From contig VGFS01000023.1 in assembly GCA_016868785.1 (NCBI GenBank), positions 1-34,776 on the forward strand: 34,776 nucleotides of DNA, in the 5' to 3' direction. Each line of letters begins with the position of its first letter. The stretch's first letter is position 1. Under the pieces are notes generated by a model. The model ran no database searches. It was not told the origin of the DNA and saw only the letters and a list, made by a program, of their open reading frames with translations. Shown one piece after another: positions 545 through 28,446 of this stretch. The stretch is from Bacteroidota bacterium. Lineage in GTDB: Bacteria > Bacteroidota > Bacteroidia > NS11-12g > UBA955. The translations under genes were made by a program, and so were the position numbers.

Positions 545-1710
545 GTCACGAGGATAAAATCATGGCATTGATGGCGTCAATAGACGTGAAGGGCTATGGC
601 AAATCGCGCAATTATGTGAATGGCAGCGTCACAGAATTGGGTCCATACATATCGCGGGGGGTAATTTCTACCCGGATGATTTGGGAATTTTTGTTGGACA
701 AGGGATACGGTTTTGAGCAGATGTTTGGGTTTGTGCAGCAGTTGGCGTGGCGCGATTTTTTTCAGCGGGTTTGGATGAGTTTGGGCGATGGGATCAACGC
801 CGACATTCGGGGTGCACAGCAGGGGGTGAAACACACCGCGCATCCCGCCGCGATAGCGGCGGGAAGCGCGGGCATTGAAGGCATCGACGTTGGCATACAC
901 CGACTCCTTTCAACGGGCTATCTGCACAACCATCAGCGCATGTACACGGCCTTTATCACTTGCAACCTCGCCGGCGCCCACTGGAAATTGCCCGCCAAAT
1001 GGATGTATGCCCACCTGTTGGATGGCGATTGGGGTTCCAATGCCCTTTCTTGGCAGTGGGTCGCCGGCACCTTTTCCAATAAAAAGTACATCGCCAATCA
1101 AGAGAATATCAATCGATACACCCATACCCATCAGCGGGGTACCTACCTTGATGTAGAGTACGAACAACTCGCCGAGGCACCTGTGCCGTCGGTTTTGAAA
1201 CCTACCTTGGTTGCCGAAGAAGTGCTGCCCTTTTCCGATTGTGATGCAGCGGCTTGGCATAAAGCCATTGAAAAACAGGGCTTGCGCTTGTGGGATCCTC
1301 AGTCCGCATTGATTGAAAATTGCGTGGTGCTTCACAACTATTATCAGTTGAGCCCAAGTTTTGCGGCAGATACAACCGCAACCCGCGTTTTGCTAATTGA
1401 GCCCTCGGTGTTTGCGCAATATCCCATCGCCGCCCATTGTGTGGATTTAATGATGTCGCTGGCCGCCGAGATACCTCATTTACAGGTGTTTGTGGGAGAG
1501 TTTGGCGAATTGCAAGCGCTTTTGCAGGCATTTGGGTCGGTGGAAGTCGTCTACCAAGAACACCCATTGAATCAACATTACACCGGCACAGAAATCGCGC
1601 GTGATTGGCTGTCGCCCGAAATAGAAGGCACTTTTTCGTCGTTTTTTTCCTACTGGAAAAAGGTGGAGAAATCGCTGCGTAAAGAATACAAAGAGGTCAA
1701 CGGATTTTAA
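541..1710 (+). CDS. Photolyase/cryptochrome-like protein with N-terminal FAD domain
   Basis: 389 residues from ATG 541 (ATGA overlap with the upstream stop; the open frame extends to 421 but that would overlap the upstream gene by 124 nt). Residues ~25-215 correspond to the FAD-binding helical domain of photolyases: YISRGVIST, LAWRDFFQRVW, GYLHNHQRMY and WGSNALSWQWVAG. The classical N-terminal alpha/beta antenna domain is missing. Instead residues ~260-389 form a C-terminal stretch with strand-helix character (LLIEPSVF, LQVFVGEF, EVVYQEHPLN) ending in a conserved-looking FSSFFSYWKKVEK. The role is presumably FAD-dependent light sensing or DNA repair. It lies directly upstream of a complete photolyase with a 9-nt gap. 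A perfect inverted repeat with an 8-bp stem sits inside the gene at 844-863. Confidence 0.85.
   Translation: MSHEDKIMALMASIDVKGYGKSRNYVNGSVTELGPYISRGVISTRMIWEFLLDKGYGFEQMFGFVQQLAWRDFFQRVWMSLGDGINADIRGAQQGVKHTAHPAAIAAGSAGIEGIDVGIHRLLSTGYLHNHQRMYTAFITCNLAGAHWKLPAKWMYAHLLDGDWGSNALSWQWVAGTFSNKKYIANQENINRYTHTHQRGTYLDVEYEQLAEAPVPSVLKPTLVAEEVLPFSDCDAAAWHKAIEKQGLRLWDPQSALIENCVVLHNYYQLSPSFAADTTATRVLLIEPSVFAQYPIAAHCVDLMMSLAAEIPHLQVFVGEFGELQALLQAFGSVEVVYQEHPLNQHYTGTEIARDWLSPEIEGTFSSFFSYWKKVEKSLRKEYKEVNGF
844..863 (+). repeat. In-frame GC-rich hairpin, 8-bp stem, GATA loop
   Basis: CCCGCCGC, loop GATA, GCGGCGGG: a perfect palindrome in the coding sequence of the FAD-domain protein, encoding Pro-Ala-Ala-Ile-Ala-Ala-Gly. 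It belongs to the set of stem-loops scattered across this window. Confidence 0.7.
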
Positions 1711-1719
1711 GGATCGCCC

Positions 1720-3261
1720 ATGGAAAACCCCAAACCCCAACTGCAAATTGTCTGGATCAAGCGTGACCTGCGCACCCGAGACCATGCGCCCTTGGCGGAG
1801 GCGGAAGCAACGGGATTGCCGTATCGGGTGATATTCATTTTTGAACCGAGCATGGTGGAGCATCCGGATTGTTCGGAACGACATATGCGCTTTCAGTGGC
1901 AGTCTATTCAAGACATGCAGCAGCGTTTGGGCAGGACGGTGGATGTGTTTTGGGGTGAGGCCGAAACGGTATTTGCCTCGTTGACGCAGTCGTTTGATGT
2001 GCAACGTGTGCTGTCGTACCAAGAATCAGGCATTGAGAAGTCGTTTCGCCGCGACAAAGCCATCGCCCAGTTACTGAAGACGACGGGCGTGGAATGGCAG
2101 GAATTTCAGCGCAATGGGGTCTTGCGGGGCATCAAAGATCGGGTGGATTGGGACAAACGTTGGTTCGTGACCATGTCTGAGCCGTTGATTGAAAAAAGTT
2201 ATCGCAAGTCGTTGCACCCCACGGAACAGGGGTCGTTGTTGGACGTTCTTCAGGGCGATTTTTCTGTGCCAGAAACTTGGTTTACTACCATGAATAGGCC
2301 GGCGCCCGGTATGCAGTTGGGGGGTGAATCTCTGGCTTGGCGATATTTACAGGGGTTTTTGTCGGACCGACATCGAAACTACCATTTCCACATATCAAAA
2401 CCGATGTTGAGTCGGGGTTCTTGTTCTCGTTTGTCGGTGTATATCGCTTGGGGTAATTTGTCGATCAAGCAAATTTATCAGGCCTCGAAATCGCTCAGCA
2501 AAGAGCAAAAAAACGGGAGGGCCATCACGGCTTTTTTGTCGCGCATCAAGTGGCACGACCATTTCGTTCAGAAATTTGAGCAGGAGTGCACGTACGAATA
2601 TCGGGCGGTGAATCGGGCGTTTGAGGATTTGGGGGCGGAGAACGATGCGGGGTTGCTGCAAGCGTGGAAGGACGGTAAAACGGGGTATCCCTTGGTGGAT
2701 GCGAACATGCGTGCGTTGGCGGAAACGGGCTGGATCAATTTTCGGATGCGGGCGATGTTGGTGAGTTTTTTAACGCATCATTTGGACATAGATTGGCGGT
2801 TGGGGGTTTATCATTTGGCGCAGTATTTTTTGGATTACGAGCCGGGGATTCATTACACGCAGTTTCAGATGCAGGCGGGAACCACGGGGGCGAATACGGT
2901 GCGGGTGTACAATCCGGTAAAGAACGGGTTGGAGCACGATGCGGAGGGCGATTTTGTGCGCAGGTGGGTGCCGGAGCTTGCGGGGTTGCCGAACCATTTG
3001 ATCCATCAGCCTTGGACGATGACGGAGATGGAGCGGTTGTTGTATGGAGTGAATTTGGGGGAGGATTATCCGCTGCCTGTGGTTGCGTTGCAGGGGCGAA
3101 AGATTGCGATGGTGTCGAGGATTTACGAAATGCGGAAGTCGGAGTTTGCCAAGCAGGAGAAGGTTAGGGTGTTGAAGAAGCACAGCCGTCCCACGAAGGC
3201 GAAAGCGGAGGGCAAAACATCGGGCAGTGAACCAAAAAGGGGAAGGGGGAAGAAGTCGTGA
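1720..3261 (+). CDS. Deoxyribodipyrimidine photolyase / cryptochrome family protein
   Basis: 513 residues, full-length for the family. The N-terminal Rossmann-like domain starts [18 protein letters not shown] (photolyase WFRRDLR-type signature). The C-terminal FAD-binding domain contains [43 protein letters not shown] and [10 protein letters not shown]. Expected role: FAD-dependent, blue-light-driven repair of UV-induced pyrimidine dimers; a photoreceptor function cannot be excluded. The last ~40 residues are a Lys/Arg/Gly-rich basic tail ([15 protein letters not shown]) that may help DNA binding. The stop overlaps the GTG start of the DUF2256 gene. The third gene downstream in a cluster of small photolyase-associated genes, it is the best-understood member. 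Confidence 0.92.
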
Positions 3262-3395
3262 AGGGTGTGAAGAAGCAGCATTTGCCGAGCAAGGTATGTG
3301 TGGCTTGCGGACGTCCGTTTACTTGGCGGAAGAAGTGGGAGCGAGATTGGACGTCGGTGAAATATTGCAGCGATAGGTGCAGGAAAGTGGGTTAA
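3258..3395 (+). CDS. DUF2256 zinc-ribbon-like small protein
   Basis: 45 residues beginning at a GTG (3258) that overlaps the photolyase stop TGA (3259-3261); a second GTG at 3267 is an alternative start. The sequence contains [18 protein letters not shown] followed by YCSDRC, i.e. two CxxC/CxxxC pairs with the FTWRKKW core diagnostic of DUF2256, a short family regularly found next to photolyases and TIGR03643 proteins. It probably binds one Zn ion. Function is unknown; the overlapping start and conserved neighbourhood suggest an accessory role to the photolyase. Confidence 0.88.
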
Positions 3396-3402
3396 TGCTT
3401 GT

Positions 3403-3427
3403 AATTATGGATAGAATCCATAGTTTT
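3403..3427 (+). terminator. Weak AT-rich hairpin after the photolyase cluster
   Basis: TATGGAT-AGA-ATCCATA forms a perfect 7-bp stem with a 3-nt loop, extendable through a wobble and two A-T pairs, and is followed by TTTTG. It lies 10 nt after the DUF2256 stop. It is low in GC, so termination would be weak; it could instead be an operator. Confidence 0.4.
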
Positions 3428-3444
3428 GTCAAAAAAGGACAACA

Positions 3445-3594
3445 ATGAAAGTAATATTATTAGCATCTATCATGACGGTTAGCTAGTACTTTGGTGCTTC
3501 GGCGGTTAAATCTACCAATGCTGAGGGCGATGCCATCAATGGCAAGTGGTCGTACCAGTGTGTGGACCCGCGTGCAATAAATGGGCAGCCGTAA
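3445..3594 (+). pseudogene. Remnant of a small secreted-protein gene with in-frame amber stop
   Basis: An ATG at 3445, preceded by AAAAGGAC, encodes MKVILLASIMTVS, a typical start of a Bacteroidota signal peptide, and then hits TAG at 3484-3486. The same frame continues for 35 more sense codons (YFGASAVKS, then INGKWSYQCVDPRA) to TAA at 3592-3594. The continuation reads like a signal-peptide end and the beginning of a mature domain. The simplest reading is a decayed gene truncated at both the amber codon and the 3' end. I cannot assign the parent family. Confidence 0.45.
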
Positions 3595-3601
3595 ATAGCT
3601 G

Positions 3602-3609
3602 TATTTTTG
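3602..3609 (+). promoter_or_regulatory. -7 element TATTTTTG upstream of mnmD-type gene
   Basis: Exact match to the Bacteroidota -7 consensus TAnnTTTG, seven nt before the ATG at 3617. No good TTTG -33 element is visible at the usual distance. The implied transcript starts at or next to the start codon. Confidence 0.45.
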
Positions 3610-3616
3610 TGTGGCA

Positions 3617-4327
3617 ATGGGTAACGAAGCTACATGGGCTGATTCAACGAATGACGAGGCGGTTCGGGTATTGACCACGGACGACGGCAGTAAGACTTTG
3701 TATTTGCCGGGGATGGATGAGACGTATCATTCAACGCATGGGGCGATCACGGAATCGAGGCATGTGTATATCAGGCATGGGTTGGATTGTTGGTTGCGGG
3801 AGAATCCGGGCGCGGCGGAGGTTCGGGTGTTTGAGATGGGATTGGGAACGGGCACCAACGCGTTGTTGGCGATGGATTGGAGTGAGGAAACGGGTTGTAG
3901 GGTGGCTTTTTATTCGGTGGAAAAATTTCCGTTGGCGAAGCCTGTGATGCAGGTGTATTGGGGTGATACGGTGTATGCCGAGCGGAGCGAGGCCTTGCAT
4001 GGGGCGGATTGGGAGCAGTGGACAGAAATTCCTATGGCCAATGGCGTTTTTCGGTTGTTCAAGCATCGGAGCGACATTCAATCTGCGGAGATTCCAGCGG
4101 CGATGGATGTGGTTTTTTGGGATGCTTTCGGACCCAAAAAGCAAACTGGGGTCTGGAGAGAGGCATTGTTTCGTCCCATTTATGATTCGCTGGATGCAAG
4201 AGGGTTGTTGGTGACTTATTCATCGGCTGGTGAGGTGAAAAGAGCGCTAAAGGGGGTTGGTTTTGCCTTGGAAAAATTGGATGGTCCGCCTTTTAAGCGA
4301 CATATGTTGCGCGCACGGAAGGGGTGA
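3617..4327 (+). CDS. mnmD: tRNA (mnm5s2U34)-methyltransferase, MnmD-like
   Basis: 236 residues from ATG 3617; a GTG at 3611 is an alternative start. It matches the stand-alone methyltransferase part of MnmC (DUF752): SKTLYLPGMDETYHSTHGAITESRH near the N-terminus in family-typical form, the SAM-binding loop FEMGLGTGTNALL around residue 77, and WDAFGPKKQTGVW near residue 170, where the DAFGP motif is characteristic. The enzyme methylates nm5s2U to mnm5s2U at the wobble position of tRNAs. The oxidase domain of bifunctional MnmC is absent, as usual in Bacteroidota. It stands alone, 31 nt upstream of an aldehyde dehydrogenase on the same strand. Confidence 0.87.
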   Translation: MGNEATWADSTNDEAVRVLTTDDGSKTLYLPGMDETYHSTHGAITESRHVYIRHGLDCWLRENPGAAEVRVFEMGLGTGTNALLAMDWSEETGCRVAFYSVEKFPLAKPVMQVYWGDTVYAERSEALHGADWEQWTEIPMANGVFRLFKHRSDIQSAEIPAAMDVVFWDAFGPKKQTGVWREALFRPIYDSLDARGLLVTYSSAGEVKRALKGVGFALEKLDGPPFKRHMLRARKG

Positions 4328-5828: not shown

Positions 5829-8690
5829 CAAATTTCTATGCGCAAAGTTGTTGCCATCGCTTTGTTTTTCTTGGCGATGGACGTTGTTTTGGCCCAGTCT
5901 GCGAAGGGGTTATTGGTAGGCCGTGTGATGTCTGAGACTGGCCGTCCTTTGGTTGGGGCCAAATTGTTTGTTGCCGGCTCTCAAGACTCGGGGGTGACGG
6001 ACGTGGAAGGAAAGTTTTCATTCTCTGTGGTTGTGGGTGCGCGGAAGGTTTTTGTGGAGGCTGAGGGTCATGATGTATTGGAAGACTCTGTGTTCATTGT
6101 AGCAAACAAGGAGTTCTTTTTGAATCCTGTTTTGTCGAAGGTGACACGCATGGAGGGGGCGGAAATCGTGAAGAAAAAGAAGCCAAAAGAAAATACGGTT
6201 GCGGCAGCCATTCAGACAAAGCAGTTGTCGCAAGGAATGGTTGAAGCCATCAGTGCGGAGGATTTTGCCAAAACCACTATTAGAACTACTTCGGATGCGA
6301 TTAAGCGTATTCCGGGGGCAACGATTTCGGAAGGTAAGTTCGCGAACATTCGCGGGATGTTTGACCGTTACAATGCGGGTTATTTGAATGGCGCGCCGCT
6401 TCCGAGTACGGAGAGCGATCGGAAAGCGTTTTCTTTTGATGTGATTCCAGCGGCTTTGTTGGACAACATTGTGGTGATGAAGAGTGCCACACCGGATGTG
6501 ATTGGTGATTTTGGCGGCGGGATTATTCAGATTAATACGAAGAGTGTACCGGAGAAGTTCATCCAAACGGCGTCTATAGGGTTTCAGTATAACAGTATTA
6601 CTACTTTTCAGCAAATGGATGCGTTTGTCTTGGAGGGTCGCGAGTATTTCGGGTTGCCAGGGAGCAAGCGGACCATTCCAGTATTGGATCCTGCCATGGG
6701 GTACGAGCCACACACCACAGCCAAAAACCCAGAATTGAATGCCAGTGAGACTTTGAAGTTTAACAATGACTGGAGTTTGAAACAGGTGAATGTAATGCCG
6801 GCGCCGAGGTTCTCGTATTCTTTGGGTAAGCCTTTCAAGTTGGGCAAGAAGGAGGCGGGTTTGTTGATCAGTTGGAATTATGCGATTTCACCTAAGCGTA
6901 GCGCGGGTTCGGTTGTTTCAAAAGATTACAGCACCAACTACACTTATAAGGAATTCAACGATGATATATTAACCACCAACGTGCAGAATGGTGGCGTGGT
7001 AAATTTCAGCGTGAAATTGAATAAAAAGAACCGCATTGATTTCAGGAATTTGTTGAGTTTGACCTATGATGCGGGATCTACGTTGCGTTCTGGTTTGACC
7101 GATGCAGATAACAATATGTTTGGAGAGGGTTATTCAAATCAGGTGAATTTCAACCGATTGGTGAGCAGTCAGGTGAATGGTTTGCACAGTTTTGGTAAGG
7201 ACAAGAGTAAATTGACATGGGTTGTTAATTATGGTAATACGTATCGCGCGGTGCCAGATTTTAGAATTGCGAATTATGCCATCCCTGATAATGATCTTGC
7301 CAACCGACAGTTGGTGTTAAACGCTTTTTTCAATGCGGGTACGGGTCGATTCTTTAGTTATATGAACGAGACGAATGTATCGGCAAGCGCTGATTATAGT
7401 TATAACATCGCGAAGGGAAAAACCAACCACCAGTTGAAGACAGGTTTGTATGCGCAGGGTCGTAATAGGGATTTCCAAAGTAGACAGTTTGTTTATGCCC
7501 CAGTAGGCAGTTACAAGCCATCCCTGTTTTTGCCTCAGCAAGATTTGGGCGTTTCTGCAATCAATGCCAAAGATTTGTATTTGATTGAAAAGACAGCCGT
7601 TGATAAAGATCTATATGAAGGAAAGAGTGCGTTGGCCGCGGCTTATGTAATGGTTGAAAATCAATTGCCCTTGTTTAAGACGGGTAAAAAAGTGAATTAT
7701 TTGAAGTTGATTTATGGCATGCGCGTAGAGCGATTTAGTCAGAGTTTGAATAACGCATATTTTCGTCAAGCAGGCAAAGTAATGAGTGATTTGGGTGTGA
7801 ATGTAGATTGGTTGCCATCATTGAATGTGATTGCTCCGTTGACCGAGCGCAGCAATTTGCGGATGGCGTATTATCGCACGGTTAACAGACCTGAGTTGCG
7901 TGAAATGGCACCGTTTGCTTTTTATAATTTTAGCATTAACTCAGAAATATTGGGTAATTCTGGATTGACCCGGGCTTTTATAAACAACGCGGATGTGCGG
8001 TGGGAAGTGTTTTCTAACAAACAGGACATGATCAGCGTTGGCGCTTTCTACAAAGAGATTTTAAATCCCATTGAGGTGAATTTGGATGTTTCACAGGCGT
8101 TGATTCGTACTTTTACTTATGGTAACGAATCGAGGGCAACAAACTTAGGGACAGAGGTTGAGATACGTAAAAACCTGGGTTCGTTAAATCGTGGGGTTTC
8201 TTGGTTGCGCGACTTGACGTTCTACGGGAATTTCGCGTTGATTCGTTCTGCGGTTTCATTTACGGGTAGTTCGAGCAGTGTGGCGAATCGTCCATTACAA
8301 GGTCAAAGTCCGTATGTGGTTAATGCGAGCTTGTTTTACGAGCACAAGGGATGGCAGATCAACACAAGCTTTAATAAAATTGGTCAGCGCATTGCCTACA
8401 TCGGTGTAGCCCAGGCCATTCAGCCGTTCGGTGCAGATATTTACGAGTTTGGCAGAAGCATTTGGGATGTACAGTTTGGTAAGGAGTTGGGCAAGGATGG
8501 AAAGTTGGGTACGATAAAATTGACATTGGGAGATTTGTTGGCGCAGAAAACTGTGTTCTTCCAAGATTTGAATGGCAATGGCAGGTATGATGAGAAGGCA
8601 TGGAAGGATGCCGACAAAGACGGTGATAATACGTTGTTTAGCTTCACCAACGGACGTCAAGCGACCATTACGTATACCTTCAAGTTTTAA
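5826..8690 (+). CDS. TonB-dependent outer-membrane receptor with CarboxypepD-reg-like domain
   Basis: 954 residues. Residues 1-23 are a signal peptide (MRKVVAIALFFLAMDVVLAQ). Residues ~28-105 form a CarboxypepD-regulatory-like beta-sandwich (GRVMSETGRPLVGAKLFV, GVTDVEGKFSF), common in Bacteroidota receptors. A plug domain follows (TTIRTTSDAIKRIPGATISEGKFANIRGM; IQINTKS), then a ~700-residue barrel. From D914 there are two acidic loops, DLNGNGRYDE and DADKDGDN, of the EF-hand/dockerin calcium-binding kind. No SusD gene follows; the partner is the beta-helix T9SS protein 164 nt downstream. The substrate is unknown. It may be autoregulated through the inverted repeat over its start. Confidence 0.93.
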   Translation: MQISMRKVVAIALFFLAMDVVLAQSAKGLLVGRVMSETGRPLVGAKLFVAGSQDSGVTDVEGKFSFSVVVGARKVFVEAEGHDVLEDSVFIVANKEFFLNPVLSKVTRMEGAEIVKKKKPKENTVAAAIQTKQLSQGMVEAISAEDFAKTTIRTTSDAIKRIPGATISEGKFANIRGMFDRYNAGYLNGAPLPSTESDRKAFSFDVIPAALLDNIVVMKSATPDVIGDFGGGIIQINTKSVPEKFIQTASIGFQYNSITTFQQMDAFVLEGREYFGLPGSKRTIPVLDPAMGYEPHTTAKNPELNASETLKFNNDWSLKQVNVMPAPRFSYSLGKPFKLGKKEAGLLISWNYAISPKRSAGSVVSKDYSTNYTYKEFNDDILTTNVQNGGVVNFSVKLNKKNRIDFRNLLSLTYDAGSTLRSGLTDADNNMFGEGYSNQVNFNRLVSSQVNGLHSFGKDKSKLTWVVNYGNTYRAVPDFRIANYAIPDNDLANRQLVLNAFFNAGTGRFFSYMNETNVSASADYSYNIAKGKTNHQLKTGLYAQGRNRDFQSRQFVYAPVGSYKPSLFLPQQDLGVSAINAKDLYLIEKTAVDKDLYEGKSALAAAYVMVENQLPLFKTGKKVNYLKLIYGMRVERFSQSLNNAYFRQAGKVMSDLGVNVDWLPSLNVIAPLTERSNLRMAYYRTVNRPELREMAPFAFYNFSINSEILGNSGLTRAFINNADVRWEVFSNKQDMISVGAFYKEILNPIEVNLDVSQALIRTFTYGNESRATNLGTEVEIRKNLGSLNRGVSWLRDLTFYGNFALIRSAVSFTGSSSSVANRPLQGQSPYVVNASLFYEHKGWQINTSFNKIGQRIAYIGVAQAIQPFGADIYEFGRSIWDVQFGKELGKDGKLGTIKLTLGDLLAQKTVFFQDLNGNGRYDEKAWKDADKDGDNTLFSFTNGRQATITYTFKF

Positions 8691-12814: not shown

Positions 12815-13564
12815 ATGAAAAAAACACTCTTTGCTATCATCGCCATCGCCATGAATCATTTGCCTCTTCAAAGTCAGTCTTTTGATGTGCTTGATACCTA
12901 TTGGACAAAAGTTGAAGCCAATTTGTCGGCCGTTCCGGCCGACCGACAAGATGAACTGAAATCACTCGCCCAGTACATTGCCAAGTCAATCAAGGCCGAT
13001 GGTACCGCCGATTTAATGTTCATTTGCACGCACAACAGTCGTCGGAGTCATTTCGGACAAATTTGGGCTGCCGCTGCTGCGCATCATTTGGGAATTTCTG
13101 GTGTTCGTACCTACTCTGCGGGTACCGAAGCCACGGCATTTAATCCGCGAGCGATTGCTGCGGTGGAGAGAGCGGGCATGATTGCCGAACACATTCCCGA
13201 TCCCATTTTGTTGCAGCGGTTAGACACCAGCAACAAGCAACTTCGGTTTGTGAATGCTGTTGATCTCAACAACAAAGTGATGATGATCACCGCTGGCAAA
13301 GGCGCAGCCCCCATTTTTTGCTTTTCAAAGACATTGGATCACCCGGTGAATCCAACGGCGGATTTCGCGGCAGTGATGACTTGTTCCTCGGCCGATGCTG
13401 CTTGTCCAACCGTACGTGGAGCCAATTTTCGTGTGGCCATTCCCTACGTTGATCCCAAGGTATCTGACGGAAAAGCAGAGGAGGCCGCCACTTACGATGC
13501 GCGTTGTTTTCAAATCGCCACTGAAATGTTTTGGGTGATGAAGGCCGTCCAAAAGCAGTTGTAA
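12815..13564 (+). CDS. arsC: LMW-PTPase-type arsenate reductase with N-terminal signal-like segment
   Basis: 249 residues. The phosphatase P-loop CTHNSRRS (Cys71-x5-Arg77) is followed by SHFGQIWA. Cys190 and Cys197 in TCSSADAACP reproduce the C-x6-C redox pair of thioredoxin-coupled ArsC, so the full three-cysteine relay is present. HPVNPTADFAAVMTC and YVDPKVSDG also fit Bacteroidota ArsC-like proteins, which reduce arsenate to arsenite. Unusually, residues 1-22 (MKKTLFAIIAIAMNHLPLQSQS) look like a signal peptide; an internal ATG at 12851 could give a cytoplasmic form. It is operonic with arsR. A perfect 8-bp-stem hairpin lies in the N-terminal coding region (12925-12943). Confidence 0.85.
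   Translation: MKKTLFAIIAIAMNHLPLQSQSFDVLDTYWTKVEANLSAVPADRQDELKSLAQYIAKSIKADGTADLMFICTHNSRRSHFGQIWAAAAAHHLGISGVRTYSAGTEATAFNPRAIAAVERAGMIAEHIPDPILLQRLDTSNKQLRFVNAVDLNNKVMMITAGKGAAPIFCFSKTLDHPVNPTADFAAVMTCSSADAACPTVRGANFRVAIPYVDPKVSDGKAEEAATYDARCFQIATEMFWVMKAVQKQL
12925..12943 (-). repeat. In-frame hairpin, 8-bp stem, GAA triloop on minus strand
   Basis: On the plus strand GTCGGCCG-TTC-CGGCCGAC, a perfect palindrome; on the minus strand the loop reads GAA. It lies inside arsC and encodes Ser-Ala-Val-Pro-Ala-Asp, in a helix-linker region. Confidence 0.7.
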
Positions 13565-13663: not shown

Positions 13664-13698
13664 AATAAGGGGGGGCCGCTGCGCGGCCCCCTCTTATT
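13664..13698 (+). terminator. Bidirectional terminator hairpin between arsC and fhs
   Basis: A 16-bp stem (one G-T wobble) runs from AATAAG through a GGGGGG/CCCCC tract to CCGC-TGC-GCGG. It sits between two convergent genes and its A/T-rich outer arms give U-containing tails in both directions. Its core and TGC loop match the hairpins found inside coding sequences here. Confidence 0.75.
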
Positions 13699-17821: not shown

Positions 17822-17854
17822 CAAAGTTAGGATGAAATTGTTGTGTTACCTTTG
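17822..17854. promoter_or_regulatory. Back-to-back promoters of the meta-cleavage genes
   Basis: Minus strand: TAACTTTG (17829-17822) then CACCC then ATG (17816). Plus strand: TACCTTTG (17847-17854) then GGGC then ATG (17859). Both are exact TAnnTTTG matches and both would give transcripts starting at about the start codon. The 42-bp intergenic gap means the two polymerases compete for the same DNA. Confidence 0.65.
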
Positions 17855-17858
17855 GGGC

Positions 17859-18641
17859 ATGATTTCGCAAGAAGTGATTGAGGCAGCCGCTGCGCGGCTG
17901 CGGGAGGCACAAGCGCAAGGCCTGCCTTGCGCGCCTGTGAGAGAATTGATCGGAGATACCGATATCGCTGCGGCGTATGCCATTCAAAAAGTGAACAACG
18001 ATTTGCGTGTGATGGAAGGTGCGGTGGCGGTTGGACAAAAAATCGGGTTGACATCCTTGGCGGTGCAGAAGCAATTGGGGGTAGACCAGCCCGACTTCGG
18101 ATTATTGTTTGCGGATACGGCAGTGAAGAATGGCGGAAGTTTGCCTGCAACGGCCATTTTGCAACCCAAAGCTGAGGCGGAAATTGCGTTTGTTATGAAG
18201 TCGGACCTTAGCGGCGAAATCAATGAAGATACAGTTGCGGCAGCGGTTGACTATGCGGTTGGTGCCATTGAAATTGTGGGGTCAAGGGTACTAAACTGGG
18301 ACATTCGCATTACGGATACGGTGGCCGACAATGCCAGCGCCAGTCATTTTGTGTTGGGGGATGTAAGAAAATCACTGGATGAAGTGGATTTGGCCAGTGT
18401 GAAAATGAACCTGTACAAAAACGGGGAACTGGTTTCTGAAGGGGTTGGTGCGGCATGTTTGGGAAGTCCATTAAAGGCACTGACTTGGTTGGCGCAGACC
18501 TTTGCGAATTTGGGAACGCCGCTGAAAGCGGGAGATATTGTGCTCAGTGGCGCTCTCGGGCCAATGTGCGCCGGCGAAGCCGGCGACACCTTTGTGTCCC
18601 ACATTGAATCTTTCGGTGAAGTTTCTTTTTCCTTCAATTAA
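17859..18641 (+). CDS. dmpE: 2-keto-4-pentenoate hydratase
   Basis: 260 residues from ATG 17859, chosen because an exact -7 element ends 4 nt before it; ATG 17832 would lie upstream of that promoter. MhpD/DmpE signatures: AYAIQKVNN, VGQKIGLTSLAVQKQLGVDQPDFGLLFAD, LQPKAEAEIAFVMK with metal-binding Glu-x-Glu, GAIEIVGSRV and DTVADNASASHFVLG. It hydrates 2-hydroxypenta-2,4-dienoate to 4-hydroxy-2-oxovalerate, the aldolase substrate. The gene is 15 nt upstream of the acetaldehyde dehydrogenase in one operon. Three perfect palindromes lie in it, two in its first 75 nt. Confidence 0.92.
   Translation: MISQEVIEAAAARLREAQAQGLPCAPVRELIGDTDIAAAYAIQKVNNDLRVMEGAVAVGQKIGLTSLAVQKQLGVDQPDFGLLFADTAVKNGGSLPATAILQPKAEAEIAFVMKSDLSGEINEDTVAAAVDYAVGAIEIVGSRVLNWDIRITDTVADNASASHFVLGDVRKSLDEVDLASVKMNLYKNGELVSEGVGAACLGSPLKALTWLAQTFANLGTPLKAGDIVLSGALGPMCAGEAGDTFVSHIESFGEVSFSFN
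17883..17901 (+). repeat. In-frame hairpin, 8-bp stem, TGC loop
   Basis: GCAGCCGC-TGC-GCGGCTGC, a perfect palindrome encoding Ala-Ala-Ala-Ala-Arg-Leu at the start of the hydratase. On the minus strand the loop is GCA. Confidence 0.75.
17913..17932 (+). repeat. In-frame hairpin, 8-bp stem, CCTG loop
   Basis: GCGCAAGG-CCTG-CCTTGCGC, a perfect palindrome 11 nt after the preceding hairpin, encoding Ala-Gln-Gly-Leu-Pro-Cys-Ala. Confidence 0.7.
18569..18585 (+). repeat. In-frame hairpin, 7-bp stem, GAA triloop
   Basis: CGCCGGC-GAA-GCCGGCG near the 3' end of the hydratase, encoding Cys-Ala-Gly-Glu-Ala-Gly-Asp. The core GCGAAGC is the well-known exceptionally stable DNA mini-hairpin. Confidence 0.75.
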
Positions 18642-21386: not shown

Positions 21387-21392
21387 TGAGTG

Positions 21393-24300
21393 ATGCTTGG
21401 TCATACTCATCAGAAGAAATCTATATTGTCCATCGCCAGGGTCGTGAAAACGACCCTGGCGATGTCATTTTTGGCCTTCGGCCAATGCCAATTACAAGCC
21501 CAAACGGAAGCAGCCCCCGCCGATTATGTGAATCCTATGGTGGGTACTGGCGGACATGGTCATACCTTCCCTGGTGCGGTGTGGCCCTTTGGTATGGTGC
21601 AATTGTCCCCCGATACCCGCATCGACGACAGTTGGGATGGTTGTGGTGGCTATTACTACGAAGACAGTTTTATTTACGGATTTTCACATACCCACCTCAG
21701 TGGTACCGGGGTGAGTGATTATGGCGATGTGTTGATGATGCCCACGGGCGGACCTTCATCACGGTTGCCAAGTTTCAATCCCTATGCGTATCGTTCAAGG
21801 TATAGCCATGCCAGCGAAGTGGCCGAAGCAGGGTATTATTCGGTGTATTTGCCGGTGTATGAAATCAAAGTGGAACTTACGGCTACCGAGCGGATGGGGG
21901 TGCATCGCTACACGTATTACAGCGCGATGAATCAGAATAAGTATACCGCCAGGGTGCTGATTGATTTGAATCATCGCGATAAGCTGTTGTCGCACGGCAT
22001 AGAGCAATTGGATGAGCGCAGAATTGGTGGGTGGCGACAGAGTAAGGCTTGGGCCAACAACCAGTGGGTGTATTTTACCATGGAATTCGACCATGAAATT
22101 GCGCGTGTGATCACCAGTCAAGACGGCAAACAAGCCATCGTGGAATTCGATTTCGAGCGTAATGGGGGCGAAAAATCGAACCCAGTACAATTGGAAACGT
22201 TGGTGGGTATTTCTTTCACCGATGCCAAGGGCGCCCGGGGCAACTTGATTTATGAAAAGGACATGGCGGTGATACGTTCTGAGGGAAAGGGTGCTGTGCG
22301 CTTTGAAACCTATCGTGCTCAGGCAAAGGCGGCGTGGAATCAAGAACTCGCCAAAATCAAAGTCACCAGCGATTACGAAGCGCAGGCATTTAGGGTAGGT
22401 GCAGAGTCGGCGAAGCGCGATTTAGAAAAACGCAAATTTTATACGGCTTTATACCATTGCATGATCCATCCGAGTTTGGCCAGCGATGCCGATGGGCGAT
22501 ATCGGGGGAGAGATCAGCAGATTCATCGGGCGGGCTTGTACAAAGAAAATGCACCGCCTTATCACAAAGTGTATTCGGTATTCTCATTGTGGGATACATA
22601 CCGGGCCTTGCATCCGCTGTTGAGTATTGTGGATCCCGAGAGAACCATAGACTTTGTTCGCACCTTCTTGCTGCAATACAAGCAGGGTGGAAAATTGCCG
22701 GTGTGGGAGTTGGGCAGTTGCGAAACGGAATGCATGATTGGGTATCACAGTGTGAGTGTGATTGCCGATGTGATGATGAAGGAAATTGGGGTAACGCGCG
22801 ATGCGATGGGACAGCCGAAATATCCTTTTGACTATAAGTTGGCCTTGGAGGCGATGATGCATAGCGCGCGGTTGAAGGATTCGGCTTTTTTGGATTTGTA
22901 CGGACAGAAGTTGGGGTATATGGGCATTGAGAACACGGCAGAAAGTGTTTCTAAGTTGCTGGAATACGCCTACGATGATTGGTGTATTGCCAGGGTGGCA
23001 CAGGCTTTGCCATCGACCCCGCAATCGGTGGTTCAGGAATTTTACGCCCGCAGTGAGCGTTGGAAGAATTTGTACGATGAGAAGACCGGGTTCATGCGTC
23101 CGCGTGTCAATGGAGGATGGCTATCGCCCTTTGATCCCAAAGAGGTAAACAATCATTTTACAGAGGCGAATGCTTGGCAATATTCGATTTACGTACCTCA
23201 TGATATTTTGGGGTTGATGGACAAGTTGGGTGGGGTGAATGCCACGGAAAAACAGTTGGATTCGTTGTTTGGAACGGATTCTCGCACCACGGGTCGTGAC
23301 CAGGCCGATATTTCAGGGTTGATTGGGCAGTATGCCCACGGGAACGAACCGAGTCATCACATGGCGTATTTGTACAATTATTGTGGCAAGCCGGAGAAGG
23401 CTCAGGGGATCATTGACTATGTCTGCAAGCAATTTTATAAAGACAGTCCGGATGGGTTGATTGGCAATGAGGATTGCGGACAGATGAGTGCTTGGTATGT
23501 GATGAGTGCAATGGGTTTTTATCCAGTATGTCCGGGCAGCAATGTATACACCACGGGTGTGCCTCAGTTTTACGAGATTGAGATTGCGAGGGAGGGGAAA
23601 TCGGGATTTTTAATCACGCGGGGGGAGATCAACAGGAAAGAGGACCGAGCCGGGCCGAAGATGTATCCGGACGTTGTGACGGTGGCGGGTGCTAAAAACA
23701 ATGTGGGTGTTAGCGAGGGTGATGTGCTCAAGCCGGAGGCGTTGAAAAAGCCATGGGCGGCGCACCAGATGGAGAAGGCGAAGGCTTCGGAGTTGCCGCC
23801 ATTGCCTACGTTGAAAGATTTGAAAGGCACGCCCGCTGCGCGGGCGGCCGCTTTGCAAGAATTGCAATTGCAGCGGGAGATGGAATTGCGCAGCATGCGC
23901 AAGGTTTATGCAGCGGCAGAACTCACGGTAACGCATCAGCAATTGATGCAATCGGATGGGTTGGTGTTTAGCGAGGTGGAGGATGCTGACAGGGATAAGC
24001 TGATTTTGAAAACTGCCAAGCAAACGGTGTCTACAGCGTTTGTGGCGGTGCCGGTGATTGAGGGTGCTCGCACGTTCAAAGACAGTTTGGTTATACGGGT
24101 GTCTGTCGCCAAGGGCACCAAAGGAATATTGGAAATCCGAGTTTCGAATCGTGAGCGCGTGGCGTTGGACAAAAAAGGCAAACCCGTTAAGCAGGCCAAG
24201 GGTAAGGGTGGCGAAAAATCGGCCATCGTATCGGCTTTGGTGGTGAAGCCAGGCACAATGGAAACCATCACTGCGGAGGCCGATGGGGCCAAGCCTTATG

Positions 24301-24968
24301 AATTTGTGGTGGCCTATGATGCTGTTGTGAGTGCGAGATTGGTGAATACGGAAGTGTACGGCGGTTTGCCGGGGTCGAATCCGGCCGGTGGCAAGGGCGA
24401 TGGGCTGGGTTCGGTTACTTTGGGACAGAGTGATTGGGCTACGGGGGAGTTTAACAAAAAGGAAAATAATTATTCGATTATTTTGGGGGATGGTGTAATT
24501 CCGCACCCCCAATACAGCGCCGGCGGAGCCGGCGCGCTGGTCGACGAGATACGGGGCTCCAAGGAATGGCGAGCAGGGGGATGGATGGGCTTTTATGATC
24601 AAGATTTTTCGGCGGTGATTGATTTGGGTTCGGTGCGATCGGTAAGCGAAGTGTCGGCCCGTTTCTTACAAGATTCCAGGGCTTGGATTTTGATACCAAG
24701 GTCGATGCAGGTATGGTCATCAACCGACGGAGTGAAATATACCCCTTGGGCGCAGGAAGTCGCTTTTAAAGACGATTGGGAGAACAACGAAACGCTGATT
24801 GATCCGGTGGCCATTCAACATACCGATGGCAAAGCCGGAGTGAAGCCAATCAAGGCGCGGTATATCAAAATTGGGGCTGCGAAGTTTGGTAAATTACCGG
24901 AAGGACATTTGGGCTACCCGTACAACGGCAGTGGTTATATTTTCATCGATGAAATTGAAGTGCGATGA
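21393..24968 (+). CDS. GH92 alpha-mannosidase with C-terminal F5/8C-type domain
   Basis: 1191 residues, longer than the ~750-residue GH92 core. The signal peptide (MLGHTHQKK to QLQAQ, ~40 residues) is long. GH92 motifs: DYVNPMVGTGGHGHTFPGA, GFSHTHLSGTGVSDYGDV, YSVFSLWDTYRALHPL, VNNHFTEANAWQYS and NEDCGQMSAWYVMSAMGFYP. GH92 enzymes are Ca-dependent exo-alpha-mannosidases acting on N-glycans. After an Ala/Glu/Arg-rich linker (~residues 800-860) and an Ig-like segment, residues ~1040-1191 (ALVDEIRGSKEWRAGGWMGFY) resemble an F5/8 type C/CBM32 domain. The stop overlaps the CutC start. Four inverted repeats lie inside the gene. Confidence 0.95.
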   Translation: MLGHTHQKKSILSIARVVKTTLAMSFLAFGQCQLQAQTEAAPADYVNPMVGTGGHGHTFPGAVWPFGMVQLSPDTRIDDSWDGCGGYYYEDSFIYGFSHTHLSGTGVSDYGDVLMMPTGGPSSRLPSFNPYAYRSRYSHASEVAEAGYYSVYLPVYEIKVELTATERMGVHRYTYYSAMNQNKYTARVLIDLNHRDKLLSHGIEQLDERRIGGWRQSKAWANNQWVYFTMEFDHEIARVITSQDGKQAIVEFDFERNGGEKSNPVQLETLVGISFTDAKGARGNLIYEKDMAVIRSEGKGAVRFETYRAQAKAAWNQELAKIKVTSDYEAQAFRVGAESAKRDLEKRKFYTALYHCMIHPSLASDADGRYRGRDQQIHRAGLYKENAPPYHKVYSVFSLWDTYRALHPLLSIVDPERTIDFVRTFLLQYKQGGKLPVWELGSCETECMIGYHSVSVIADVMMKEIGVTRDAMGQPKYPFDYKLALEAMMHSARLKDSAFLDLYGQKLGYMGIENTAESVSKLLEYAYDDWCIARVAQALPSTPQSVVQEFYARSERWKNLYDEKTGFMRPRVNGGWLSPFDPKEVNNHFTEANAWQYSIYVPHDILGLMDKLGGVNATEKQLDSLFGTDSRTTGRDQADISGLIGQYAHGNEPSHHMAYLYNYCGKPEKAQGIIDYVCKQFYKDSPDGLIGNEDCGQMSAWYVMSAMGFYPVCPGSNVYTTGVPQFYEIEIAREGKSGFLITRGEINRKEDRAGPKMYPDVVTVAGAKNNVGVSEGDVLKPEALKKPWAAHQMEKAKASELPPLPTLKDLKGTPAARAAALQELQLQREMELRSMRKVYAAAELTVTHQQLMQSDGLVFSEVEDADRDKLILKTAKQTVSTAFVAVPVIEGARTFKDSLVIRVSVAKGTKGILEIRVSNRERVALDKKGKPVKQAKGKGGEKSAIVSALVVKPGTMETITAEADGAKPYEFVVAYDAVVSARLVNTEVYGGLPGSNPAGGKGDGLGSVTLGQSDWATGEFNKKENNYSIILGDGVIPHPQYSAGGAGALVDEIRGSKEWRAGGWMGFYDQDFSAVIDLGSVRSVSEVSARFLQDSRAWILIPRSMQVWSSTDGVKYTPWAQEVAFKDDWENNETLIDPVAIQHTDGKAGVKPIKARYIKIGAAKFGKLPEGHLGYPYNGSGYIFIDEIEVR
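21431..21470 (+). promoter_or_regulatory. Terminator-like 15-bp hairpin inside the GH92 signal-peptide region
   Basis: CATCGCCAGGGTCGT-GAAA-ACGACCCTGGCGATG is a perfect 15-bp stem with a GAAA tetraloop (21431-21464), followed by TCATTTTTGG. It has the anatomy of an intrinsic terminator but lies in the first 25 codons of GH92, 63 nt after the OmpA stop. It could terminate ompA or attenuate GH92. Confidence 0.6.
21471..21485 (-). repeat. In-frame hairpin, 6-bp stem, GAA triloop on minus strand
   Basis: TTGGCC-TTC-GGCCAA, six nt after the larger hairpin, encoding Leu-Ala-Phe-Gly-Gln in the signal peptide. On the minus strand the loop is C-GAA-G. Confidence 0.6.
23830..23846 (+). repeat. In-frame hairpin, 7-bp stem, TGC loop
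   Basis: CGCCCGC-TGC-GCGGGCG in the Ala/Glu-rich linker of GH92, encoding Thr-Pro-Ala-Ala-Arg-Ala. Confidence 0.75.
24517..24535 (+). repeat. In-frame hairpin, 8-bp stem, GGA triloop
   Basis: GCGCCGGC-GGA-GCCGGCGC at the start of the F5/8C-type domain of GH92, encoding Ser-Ala-Gly-Gly-Ala-Gly-Ala. Confidence 0.75.
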
Positions 24969-25666
24969 AAGGGGTTGAGGTTTGCGTATTCTCAGTGGAT
25001 GACGCCTACGCGGCAGAGGCGGCGGGCTGCGCCCGCCTTGAACTGTGCCAGGATTATCAACTGGGAGGCATTACACCCTCGCTCGAAGATTTGCAGAAAA
25101 TGAGCCCCACGAACATTGTGAATGACGTTCGACACGGACTCCGCGTAACGGCGGTGGTGATGGTAAGGCCCCGCGGGGGTGATTTTCTTTACAGCAAACG
25201 CGAGAAAAAATGGATGCTTACCACCATCAAGCAAGTCGCCAAATTGGGTTTTCAAGGGGTGGTTTTAGGGGCCCTGTTGAAAAGGAATGGGCGGTGGCTG
25301 CTCGACAAAGAATTTTGTATGCAGGCTTGTGAACTGTCGCACTCGCTGGGATTGGAGGCAGTGCTTCACCGGGCATTTGATGAAATTGCGACCCCATTGA
25401 ATGCCGTTTCTGAGGCCGAAGAATGTGGGTTTGATCGCATCTTAACCGGTTGGGGCAGTATCAACATGGAAACGCTCAAGATGCTGAAGTGGCATGCCGA
25501 GGCCATCGATGTTTTGCCGGGTGGTGGAATCCGGTCAGACAATGTACAATATTACCGGGATTTGGGATTTTTGGAGGTGCACACGTCCGCCCGCGGAGCG
25601 GGCGGACAGCTCGACATCGACCAACTCAAACAGATGGTTGAGGTGATGAAAGGGGTGCCGCTTTGA
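24965..25666 (+). CDS. cutC: CutC family TIM-barrel protein
   Basis: 233 residues, typical CutC size. Motifs: VEVCVFSVDDA at the N-terminus, ARLELCQDYQLGGITPS (family consensus GGADRIELC, here AGCARLELC), VMVRPRGGDFLYS, VLHRAFDE, FDRILTGWG and LPGGGIRSDN. CutC was named for copper homeostasis in E. coli, but the enzymatic role is uncertain. Here it is sandwiched by overlaps: ATGA with GH92 upstream and a shared A of TGATG with GH2 downstream. That placement between two mannosidases suggests a function in glycan breakdown. Two perfect palindromes lie in the gene, one replacing the conserved GGADR segment. Confidence 0.93.
   Translation: MKGVEVCVFSVDDAYAAEAAGCARLELCQDYQLGGITPSLEDLQKMSPTNIVNDVRHGLRVTAVVMVRPRGGDFLYSKREKKWMLTTIKQVAKLGFQGVVLGALLKRNGRWLLDKEFCMQACELSHSLGLEAVLHRAFDEIATPLNAVSEAEECGFDRILTGWGSINMETLKMLKWHAEAIDVLPGGGIRSDNVQYYRDLGFLEVHTSARGAGGQLDIDQLKQMVEVMKGVPL
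25021..25037 (+). repeat. In-frame hairpin, 7-bp stem, TGC loop
   Basis: GGCGGGC-TGC-GCCCGCC in cutC, encoding Ala-Gly-Cys-Ala-Arg-Leu where most CutC proteins have Gly-Gly-Ala-Asp-Arg-Ile. Confidence 0.75.
25585..25607 (+). repeat. In-frame hairpin, 10-bp stem, GGA triloop
   Basis: GTCCGCCCGC-GGA-GCGGGCGGAC, a perfect 10-bp stem in cutC, encoding Ser-Ala-Arg-Gly-Ala-Gly-Gly after the conserved HTSAR. Confidence 0.8.
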
Positions 25667-28446
25667 TGCGACCCTCGATCTCTGTCCCGTCGAAGATGTT
25701 CAGGGGTATTTGTTTCGTCGTGTTGATGCTCGGCAACACAAATCTCTTCGCCCAGCCTTCAATTCAATTGCCTCCACCCGATGTTTACCAGGCCACGGTG
25801 AATCAATCATCCAAAAGCCATCGCATCGAACAATGGGAACTGTTGGAAGAGGATTTCTCCATGGCCATCGTGAACAATGAAGCCCATGCGGACCAATTGC
25901 ACGAGTATGATTCTACCGTTTCGGGTCGCGGTTGGATTCCTGTAAAATATACCCCAGCCATCAACGATTTGTTTTGCCCGCACCCATCGCCCTCGGCTTG
26001 CAGCGAAAATTGCGGTAAAAATCCGCTGGCCTGCGATCACATACGGCTTACGTCCTGCAACAGTCACTGCAACAGTGTGGAGTGGCGACGGTGGACCTAC
26101 CGGGCAGCGTTGTTCGAAAATGCGGAAGCAGCCCAGCAAGAGGAACACCATTTTTTGCAAATCAAGCAGTGGGAAGGTGCCTATATTGAGGTTAGGATCA
26201 ACAATAAATTGGTGAAAGAAGTGAATCCGCTACTCAGCAGTTTCGCCGATATTACCATTGATTTGGATGGTCTCATTGAAAAGGATGGGAAGGATTCTGT
26301 CTATATTTTCTTCGATTCTCCCAGTCAAATTGGTGCCCTGTATAGCGAGCGGTCGAGGATGGTGTTTCCGGCCGATAATGAAGCACAAATCACCACTTTT
26401 GGCAGTTATGGGTTGGATAAGGAGGGTAAGCCTGCGGCCAAGGCGAGTCCGTTCTTGCGTAAGCCCATCGTGCAGTATGGTTGGGATATTGCGCCCCGCA
26501 GGGTGTTGGTGGGTTTGGGCGAGGGCGTTTTTGTGCATGGATGGAGCGACAACCACTTGCAAACGCTGAACATTACCGAAGACTCCTCGTGGATGGGGGT
26601 TGAATCAGGTAAGCCGGTGGAATATGTTTACGGATATGCCGAGTTGTATTATCTGTGCGATACGATGCGAGGTCGGCCCGATTTTGTGCGTGTGACATCG
26701 GGGAATTTGCCCGACATGTACGACGATATTGAATGGGATGTTGTGCGATTGGGCGATAAGGATGAGGACAAGGTCATCGTTTCGGCGAATGAATTTGGGG
26801 CGGAAGCCAGGTATCGCAAGTTTGCGTTTCGGGTGAAAAATCCCAAGCATTGGTTTCCGAATGGGCTGTATCAACAATTGAATCAGGATTCGCATCCGGC
26901 GCTGTATCATATAGAGATTTCGGCGCATCAGCTGGACAAAAATGGCCGCAATCAGATTCATAGCATTGAACGAAATTGGGGTATTCGGTCGGTGAGGTTG
27001 GATACTACTGGCGGACGATTTGCGTTTTCCGTCAATGGGGTTTCTGTATTTGCGATGGGTGCAAATTTGATTTGGGCGAGGCAGTTTGGCGACAGTGCAA
27101 GTGTGTATCCGGAGCGACTGTTTTTGGGTGATCCTGGCGATTTGAGTCAGTTAGACATCATGCGTGCCCAGGGTTACAACATGGTGAGAATTTGGGGCGG
27201 TGGGGCTTATCCAAGTGAGGCGTTTTACGATCGATGCGATGCCTTGGGAATCATGGTTTGGCAGGATTTGATGTTCAATGGAACGATGTACCCTGATGCC
27301 GCCAATTTTCTTGAAGCGGTGGAGTCGGAGGTCTTGTCGCAGGCAATGCGGTTGAACAATCACCCGAGTTTGGCTTTGTGGTGTGGCAACAATGAGATCG
27401 AAGTGGCTTGGCACAATTGGGGCTGGCAGCAGAAGTACAACATCCACGGGCTGGATAGCGCCAGGATGTGGCATGCGTATTTGACGCTGTTTGATACGGT
27501 CATTCCGGAGGCGTTGGGGGTATGGTCGGGCAGTGTGCCTTACTCCCGAAGCAGTCCGATTGGCAATTGGGGCAATTTGCAGCAGATGAAACGGGGCGAT
27601 AACCACGATTGGGGTGTCTGGCATGGGGAGCGTGGTTTTACGCATTTGGATTCGGCGCGGATGCCGTTTTGCAGCGAGTATGGATTACCGAGTCCTGCGG
27701 AATGGGATTGGCAAGAGGATGTTTCGCCTTGGGAATCAACGCTGTTGAGTTATAAGGGGCCCAAGTTATTGCGCAAATATGTGGAAACGGAGTATCCCAA
27801 ATCTTGGCCGCATCGGGGTATTGAATCGGTTGAGAAGATGGATTTTGTGGATTCCGCGGCGGTGGTGCAGGGTGAGTTTTTATGTAGGGCGATGATTAGT
27901 CACCGGATGGCATCGCCGTATTGTATGGGGTCGTTGTATTGGCAGTACAATGATATTTGGAACGGAACGACTTGGAGTGTTGCGAATACCGAATCTAGGT
28001 GGAGTATGTTGAAATCCTCGCAAGGAAAGGTGGCCGAGGCGATGTTGCCGGTGGTGATGAAGTTGATTCCGAGTGGATGGTGGGGCGTGAAGGATCAGTT
28101 TTTTATACAATTAAATTCTCGGTTGATCGATAATGGCAAGGTGCCGCTAGAGATTTCTGCCTATGATTCATTGGGGCGGCTGTTGTTTGAGAAGGCGTTA
28201 GAGGTCAAATTGCCGGGGAACTGGCAAATTCTGGCTGATGGATTATCAACGACCCGGGTGATTCCTATTTCTTTTGCGGGCAAGCGTAAATACCAGAAAA
28301 AGATGGACCGGGTGAGTTATTATTCGGTTCGTTTGATTCAGCCAGCAGCCGCGCAGCGGCTGCTGGACCTAATACCAGAGGGTAAACACTTTTATGAGGG
28401 TTATCCGGTGCTGGAGGAATGCCTTTGGGTTGGTGCTCCGCGATAA
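25666..28446 (+). CDS. GH2 beta-mannosidase-like glycoside hydrolase
   Basis: 926 residues from ATG 25666 (TGATG overlap with cutC); ATG 25696 would give a tidier signal peptide (MFRGICFVVLMLGNTNLFAQ). N-terminal jelly roll, Ig-like region and TIM barrel of GH2 are present: GANLIWARQF, YNMVRIWGGGAYPSEAFYD, WQDLMFNGTMYP, HPSLALWCGNNEIE with acid/base Glu577 and MPFCSEYGLPS with nucleophile Glu671. GANLIW and the WCGNNE form point to beta-mannosidase, expected to cleave the core Man-beta-1,4-GlcNAc of N-glycans. Six cysteines at residues 104-135 form an unusual insert in the N-terminal domain. An 11-bp-stem palindrome lies near the 3' end. Confidence 0.92.
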   Translation: MRPSISVPSKMFRGICFVVLMLGNTNLFAQPSIQLPPPDVYQATVNQSSKSHRIEQWELLEEDFSMAIVNNEAHADQLHEYDSTVSGRGWIPVKYTPAINDLFCPHPSPSACSENCGKNPLACDHIRLTSCNSHCNSVEWRRWTYRAALFENAEAAQQEEHHFLQIKQWEGAYIEVRINNKLVKEVNPLLSSFADITIDLDGLIEKDGKDSVYIFFDSPSQIGALYSERSRMVFPADNEAQITTFGSYGLDKEGKPAAKASPFLRKPIVQYGWDIAPRRVLVGLGEGVFVHGWSDNHLQTLNITEDSSWMGVESGKPVEYVYGYAELYYLCDTMRGRPDFVRVTSGNLPDMYDDIEWDVVRLGDKDEDKVIVSANEFGAEARYRKFAFRVKNPKHWFPNGLYQQLNQDSHPALYHIEISAHQLDKNGRNQIHSIERNWGIRSVRLDTTGGRFAFSVNGVSVFAMGANLIWARQFGDSASVYPERLFLGDPGDLSQLDIMRAQGYNMVRIWGGGAYPSEAFYDRCDALGIMVWQDLMFNGTMYPDAANFLEAVESEVLSQAMRLNNHPSLALWCGNNEIEVAWHNWGWQQKYNIHGLDSARMWHAYLTLFDTVIPEALGVWSGSVPYSRSSPIGNWGNLQQMKRGDNHDWGVWHGERGFTHLDSARMPFCSEYGLPSPAEWDWQEDVSPWESTLLSYKGPKLLRKYVETEYPKSWPHRGIESVEKMDFVDSAAVVQGEFLCRAMISHRMASPYCMGSLYWQYNDIWNGTTWSVANTESRWSMLKSSQGKVAEAMLPVVMKLIPSGWWGVKDQFFIQLNSRLIDNGKVPLEISAYDSLGRLLFEKALEVKLPGNWQILADGLSTTRVIPISFAGKRKYQKKMDRVSYYSVRLIQPAAAQRLLDLIPEGKHFYEGYPVLEECLWVGAPR
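28342..28366 (+). repeat. In-frame hairpin, 11-bp stem, GCA triloop
   Basis: CCAGCAGCCGC-GCA-GCGGCTGCTGG, a perfect palindrome near the 3' end of the GH2 gene, encoding Pro-Ala-Ala-Ala-Gln-Arg-Leu-Leu. Its core is the reverse complement of the one at 17883. Confidence 0.8.

Follow-up and report, generated by a model that had tools for sequence, protein, structure and literature searches.

Short, GC-rich DNA hairpins capped by the triloop 5'-C(GNA)G-3' lie inside the genes of one bacterial clade, described as one group of freshwater Flavobacteriales. The window analysed here, a whole stretch of 34,776 nucleotides, is contig C23 (1-34776; GenBank VGFS01000023.1) of a 2.07 Mb, 79-contig Bacteroidota genome (assembly GCA_016868785.1; G000, the host). 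The hairpins exceed chance, belong to one loop class, are indifferent to the coding strand, replace earlier sequence in place, have inverted their loops at several sites, persist between species, and are restricted to the clade. Template switching, by way of inverted repeats whose folding is made possible by the C(GNA)G cap, would be their main generator and keeper, a reading to which we give about even credence. The very stable d(GCGNAGC) mini-hairpin carries this cap, and hairpins of the same loop class extrude at physiological superhelicity at the promoters of phage N4; the hairpins here have the N4-type combination of this cap with a GC-rich stem. Ease of folding may be the reason why this loop class is the one that accumulates.

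In the window, nine GC-rich (at least 0.75) triloop hairpins with stems of at least 7 base pairs (bp) are observed, compared with 0.18 in fifth-order Markov sequences. Shuffles in which synonymous codons were permuted within each open reading frame (ORF), keeping protein and codon use, give 0.10 for the seven coding GC-rich GNA hairpins of the window and 0.00 for its six coding C(GNA)G hairpins. The rest of the sampled host genome (800 kb) contains 16 coding GC-rich GNA hairpins against 1.3 in the shuffles. With 9 of the 31 GNA hairpins in 35 of the 835 kb, the window is about 9 times denser than the remaining host sample; thus, the original prediction, made from the letters of the window, had caught an unusually rich stretch of a genome-wide feature. 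Sampling reached about 40% of the host genome and a smaller share of each relative. The relatives searched, 14 congeners (G001-G014) together with genomes from other genera of the family and order, are probably metagenome-assembled genomes (MAGs), many of them incomplete; the nearest named entry of the collection is the MAG Flavobacteriales bacterium RH-18aug17-59 (RH59).

Seven clade genomes (the host and six congeners; 1,376 kb, window excluded; GC at least 0.6, stem at least 7) hold 44 coding C(GNA)G hairpins where the shuffles give 0.55, an excess of about 80-fold. Coding hairpins with other GNA loops number 7 (0.95 shuffled) and those with other triloops 16 (7.75 shuffled). Neither tetraloops (10 observed, 11.65 shuffled) nor loops of 5-8 nucleotides (nt; 10 observed, 39.75 shuffled) are in excess in the coding DNA of these genomes, and therefore the excess is specific to the C(GNA)G cap. 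GC-rich hairpins of the 5-8-nt class are in fact strongly depleted in coding DNA, a depletion that extends to the family's other genera (1 observed, 5.5 shuffled). ORFs were called mechanically, and a few hairpins scored as coding may sit in spurious ORFs, a risk exemplified by the hairpin at 17883, first assigned to an antisense ORF.

Within the window, hairpins are present in photolyase-family, LMWPc-like, FAA-hydrolase, GH92 (with F5/8C domain), CutC, and GH2-like genes. All 11 palindromes listed by the original prediction exist and ten have a GNA triloop on one strand, as claimed; the remaining one, at 843-864, has the loop GATA and falls outside the set. The terminator core that had been placed at 13664 is real and occupies 13671-13691. 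In these ten, the GNA strand closes the loop with a C-G pair everywhere but at 12925.

843..864, photolyase-family gene: stem 9, loop GATA, outside the GNA class; relatives have a GATC-centred palindrome or a variant thereof.
12925..12943, LMWPc-like gene (12815-13564): GC-rich, stem 8, loop TTC (GAA on the minus strand); found in the host and G009 only.
13671..13691, intergenic terminator-like core, a non-coding example: stem 9, loop TGC (GCA on the minus strand).
17883..17901, near the start of the FAA-hydrolase gene (17832-18641): stem 8, loop TGC; the loop is GCA in G002, G009, and G004, AAA in G007, and TGC in the others.
17913-17932: stem 8, loop CCTG; overlooked by the original prediction.
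18569..18585, FAA-hydrolase gene: stem 7, loop GAA; perfect in most of the clade, imperfect in G006, G008, and G013.
21431..21464, signal-peptide part of the GH92 gene: stem 15, loop GAAA; likewise overlooked.
21471..21485, GH92 gene: stem 6, loop TTC.
23830..23846, GH92/F5-F8C gene: stem 7, loop TGC; a T-rich imperfect version with loop GCA in G004, G005, and G007.
23886-23902: stem 7, loop GCA; also overlooked.
24517..24535, GH92/F5-F8C gene: stem 8, loop GGA; YSAGGLGALVDE replaced in place by YSAGGAGALVDE.
25021..25037, cutC: stem 7, loop TGC; identical stem with loop GCA in G004, G005, G007, and G014, and with GCG in G002.
25585..25607, cutC: stem 10, loop GGA; in-place replacement, also in G012.
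28342..28366, near the end of the GH2-like gene: stem 11, loop GCA; perfect in the host, G007, RH59, and G012, near-perfect in G003, G006, and G014.

Genes with hairpins elsewhere include those for MurD, a second Mur ligase, FtsW/RodA, an aromatic amino acid lyase, and RsmF, among others. In the lyase gene, a hairpin with a 13-bp stem covers the stretch encoding ITHAAGVGNP (L195:2364-2392).

The loops of these hairpins have been inverted. In comparisons among clade genomes, a GNA or TNC triplet flanked by a stem of at least 6 bp has become its exact reverse complement in 176 of 1,278 cases (13.8%), and the same triplets lacking a stem have done so in 470 of about 717,000 (0.07%). Among three-base differences, the exact reverse complement accounts for 72% with a stem and 2.7% without. 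Since the comparisons share ancestry, the number of sites, five, is the safer figure. These are FAA hydrolase 17883, CutC 25021, GH92 23830, MurD L196:18283, and an intergenic site, L236:19484; the inversion at aligned hairpins is between TGC and GCA. Inversion of the spacer between unchanged stems is a product of template switching, and it is this that is seen, with a remodelled stem at one of the five sites (GH92 23830). A tree of the FAA-hydrolase gene with hairpins masked forces two separate appearances of GCA at 17883, with only short branches separating G004 (GCA), G005 (TGC), G007 (AAA), and G011 (TGC). The flips are the mark expected of the hairpin-templated mutation that the original prediction had suggested. 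A separate observation concerns L038, where an inverted repeat of about 49 bases (positions ~6293-6341) matches its own reverse complement at the same place in several relatives.

The hairpins also arose in place. Wherever a coding site has an ungapped ortholog, codon alignments reveal no insertion: sequence has been replaced with its length preserved, as had been proposed. Thus, CutC has TSARGAGG at 25585 where relatives have TSSRNAEG or TSSRNHQG, and GH92 has GGAG at 24517 where relatives have GGLG or GGMG, and arms and loops alike tolerate such amino-acid changes. A perfect inverted repeat that takes the place of an imperfect one at constant length is a second product of template switching, and cases of this kind are found. 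The repeat at 18569 is imperfect in the outgroups G008 and G013, whereas most of the clade has it in perfect form. At 12925, the right arm (VPADR codons) is common to relatives and only the left arm is new. In G007 (L046:5677), the left arm, A-rich in G014, has been matched to the right arm, and G012 (L210:9071) provides the mirror case. At 21431-21464, both outer arms change together, CATC..GATG in the host and G012 versus AAAC..GTTT in G009 and G002.

The trait marks one clade of the genus. No excess of C(GNA)G hairpins is present in the distant congeners G008 and G013 (136 kb; 0 versus 0.05 shuffled), in other genera of the host family (333 kb; 0 versus 0.15), or in Escherichia coli K-12 (250 kb; 0 versus 0.65); other Bacteroidota with a GC content of at least 0.44 (303 kb) have 3 versus 0.30, a small number, yet above zero. 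The clade sample is the larger one in each of these comparisons, and the GC content of some controls is lower. The host has 10 copies of the 13-mer GCCGCGNAGCGGC, each of the eleven other clade members has 3-7, and the incomplete G010 has one; G008 and G013 have none. Genus g10 perhaps shares the trait, with 5 and 4 matches in its genomes G023 and G033; a sample of about 31 kb from this genus contains no such hairpin. The remainder of the 58 relatives searched have no match to the 13-mer, and its reversed control gives zero in all carrier genomes. A 15-mer version has 4 copies in the host; of 296 other members of the phylum, 14 have any, and none has more than 3. Perfect versions of the hairpins are missing from G008, G013, and the rest of the family, the outcome of the comparison with orthologs that the original prediction had called for, and so protein conservation alone is insufficient to account for them. 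The codon-preserving shuffles, the other refuting test that it had named, likewise turned out in its favour.

Template switching could have produced this pattern as follows. Short imperfect inverted repeats capped by 5'-C(GNA)G-3' would fold or extrude during replication. The polymerase would then switch template through the hairpin and copy one arm anew as the reverse complement of its partner; this would make the repeat perfect with length unchanged and would later re-match an arm after mutation. A switch between strands would sometimes invert the triloop, and protein function would filter the surviving events. Such a process would explain the in-place replacement of arms, the tolerated amino-acid changes, and the inversion of loops. 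Frequent flips imply frequent switching through the hairpins, which would also re-match mutated arms. The observation on which the original prediction was built is confirmed, and its interpretation is supported.

Persistence of the hairpins can be read in two ways. Ortholog comparisons at about 75% DNA identity show a perfect stem for GC-rich GNA hairpins in 46 of 117 cases (39%) and pairing below one half in 30%; hairpins with loops of 4-8 nt are perfect in 6%. Hairpins with other triloops and a GC content of at least 0.5 are kept in 38% (12 sites) and GC-rich hairpins with loops of 4-8 nt in 26% (6 sites), both small numbers; since these other GC-rich hairpins are also often kept, GC content may contribute to persistence. 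DNA folding energies are uninformative, given that the model assigns equal energy to GNA and other triloops. Several results weigh against giving template switching the leading part in making and keeping the hairpins. Synonymous codons show 96% identity within kept hairpins and 63% in the flanks, which also fits selection, although the first value is inflated by the fact that "kept" requires pairing. Paired double changes maintain pairing little more often than in controls (0.52 versus 0.40-0.43), and there is no clear joint drift of stems. In close pairs (at least 86% identity), where there is little sequence, clusters of at least three substitutions fall barely more often in inverted repeats than in mirror-repeat controls, with 27 versus 23 (arms of at least 6), 8 versus 8 (at least 7), and 6 versus 1 (at least 8). 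Finally, no missing repair gene accounts for the restriction to the clade, the loss of ExoVII being patchy and unspecific.

The strongest alternative is selection. A structure-specific protein (for example, the SbcCD/Mre11-Rad50-like pair of this clade, a nucleoid protein, or an SSB-type protein) would use extruded C(GNA)G hairpins in either orientation, and template switching would supply occasional flips only. The small excess of multi-base mutations at hairpins in close species pairs makes this a serious rival, and the weakness of that excess, together with the weak covariation of the arms, leaves it at the level of a real if minority possibility. It is favoured by the contrast in perfect stems (39% versus 6% for loops of 4-8 nt), by the synonymous identity (0.96 in kept hairpins, 0.63 in flanks), and by the depletion of longer-loop GC-rich hairpins (10 versus 39.8). 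Against it, the genes that carry hairpins are unrelated, the hairpins occur at any position within them, no motif flanks them, and kept stems tolerate the non-GNA loops AAA and GCG.

The distribution of an SbcD-like gene is a further point in favour of selection. Its frame (E ~1e-12 to 1e-13, under the family cut-off) is found in 11 of 12 clade members (host, G000:C57:110-385; 379-397 amino acids in the relatives, including G002:C153, G009:C96, and G012:C36) and is absent at that strength from G008, G010, G013, and other genera. In G002, G009, and G012, an SbcC-like frame with a weak match (829 amino acids in G002 and G009) lies beside it on the same strand, at a distance of about 1.1 kb. At that match strength, the pair is confined to the hairpin-bearing clade among the relatives searched in the genus and family. 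A full SbcCD pair is present in the f2 genome G048, which does not match the 13-mer. It counts against the rival that the co-occurrence concerns one clade, and so a single evolutionary event. The SbcD-like gene was rejected as the cause, for it accompanies the pattern in genus g1 but is missing from g10, where whole-genome counts reveal the pattern as well. Loss of ExoVII (XseA) was likewise rejected, being seen in the host and most of the clade and also in genomes without the trait, with the gene present in three members that have it. The SbcCD-like and XseA patterns are leads, not explanations. It is a rather doubtful further step that the clade uses orientation-free C(GNA)G mini-hairpins, kept by selection across its coding DNA, as sites for a structure-specific DNA protein, possibly a clade-specific SbcCD-like complex.

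The orientation of the loops bears on whether the hairpins act in RNA, by affecting the stability, pausing, or translation of mRNA or by serving as terminators. On the coding strand of the clade hairpins, the loop reads GNA in 28 and TNC in 34, with a C-G closing pair on the GNA strand in 53 of 62. The coding strand is thus ignored, which marks the hairpins as features of DNA rather than RNA, and this neutrality, the lack of a flank motif, and the spread along ORFs argue against both an RNA element and a mobile sequence. Some hairpins are intergenic and followed by T runs, and terminator-like hairpins of the same genomes also carry GNA triloops, 13 GNA to 4 TNC in the RNA orientation, with tetraloops frequent. 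In genes, however, tetraloops, including stable RNA loop classes, are not enriched, and no Rfam family matches at the hairpins, a tRNA being the sole Rfam match. An RNA-level role is already disfavoured and appears improbable.

Insertion of mobile or REP/RAYT-like palindromic elements is very improbable. The palindromes are dispersed, and two window hairpins (17883, as it reads in relatives, and 28342) have the common core CAGCCGC-GCA-GCGGCTG. Nevertheless, replacements keep length at the sites with orthologs, which refutes insertion there, and no conserved repeat sequence is seen: over 36 distinct coding hairpins, stem positions are near-even in G and C, the hairpins are spread along ORFs, and no flank motif surrounds them, consistent with the proposal that they share an architecture and not a repeat sequence. 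A search for a Y1 (TnpA-REP-like) transposase, which the original prediction had advised, found none in the host genome. Least credible of all is that GC-rich Ala/Gly/Arg codon runs yield the palindromes by composition, since, although the encoded peptides are indeed rich in these residues, as had been noted, shuffles with the same protein and codon use fail to reproduce the set (0.55 for 44) and other loop lengths are not enriched, which refutes it.

Template switching that creates or inverts short repeats is already known; the hairpins here form a genome-wide accumulation limited to one exceptionally stable DNA loop class in one bacterial clade. In E. coli, quasipalindromes are mutational hotspots in which imperfect inverted repeats become perfect as one arm is copied from the other (PMC7202029). 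The conversion is alike here; what differs is the genome-wide accumulation of one loop class in one clade. In yeast coding genes, template switching homogenises arms and inverts spacers, with 39 genes affected across strains, spacers of up to 70 nt, and inversions only with arms longer than 9 bp (PMC8604942). The two systems share in-gene multi-base changes, full spacer inversion, and amino-acid replacements, whereas the present one is bacterial, with 3-nt GNA loops and flips at arms of 7-11 bp. Hairpins in rRNA and microRNA genes have been ascribed to template-switch origin and maintenance, with inversions rare (PMC8794818); there too perfect stems are created and kept and loop inversion is diagnostic, but the hairpins described here are in protein-coding DNA and strand-neutral.

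The promoter hairpins of phage N4 have a GC-rich heptamer with a 3-nt loop and a sheared G:A pair and extrude from duplex DNA at sub-physiological superhelical density with Mg2+ (PMC4496689). The GC-rich stem and GNA-type 3-nt loop are shared with these sites for the virion RNA polymerase, and extrusion is proposed here by that analogy; unlike the phage promoters, with their conserved sequence, the present stems vary and lie inside genes, and there is no evidence of promoter function. Mitochondria of Nematomorpha have coding palindromes of up to 284 bp (PMC6649704). These are also lineage-specific perfect inverted repeats in genes with both arms coding; they differ in being mitochondrial and long, and loop class is not their feature. 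Rickettsia palindromic elements and REP-RAYT systems likewise place palindromes in or near genes, but those are inserted mobile sequences, and the hairpins here are replacements with neither common sequence nor transposase. The literature searched contains no description of such a loop-specific set, which is not proof of absence. The clade, with amino-acid changes in enzymes such as MurD, is a natural setting in which to ask under what conditions hairpins of DNA arise in living cells and what effect a structural bias in mutation has on proteins, and the availability of close species with and without the trait makes the cause tractable in principle. If selection does keep the hairpins, they would represent an undescribed genome-wide DNA structural code.

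Other features of the window were also noted. The stretch at 300-920 is 94% identical to G000:C58:6092-6712 on a second contig of the assembly, which may represent a strain variant or a recent duplication. A tRNA gene (Rfam RF00005) occupies 33627-33699. G012 carries two different CutC copies (C173 and C83), 85% and 87% identical to the window CutC, which suggests paralogs or strain mixing.

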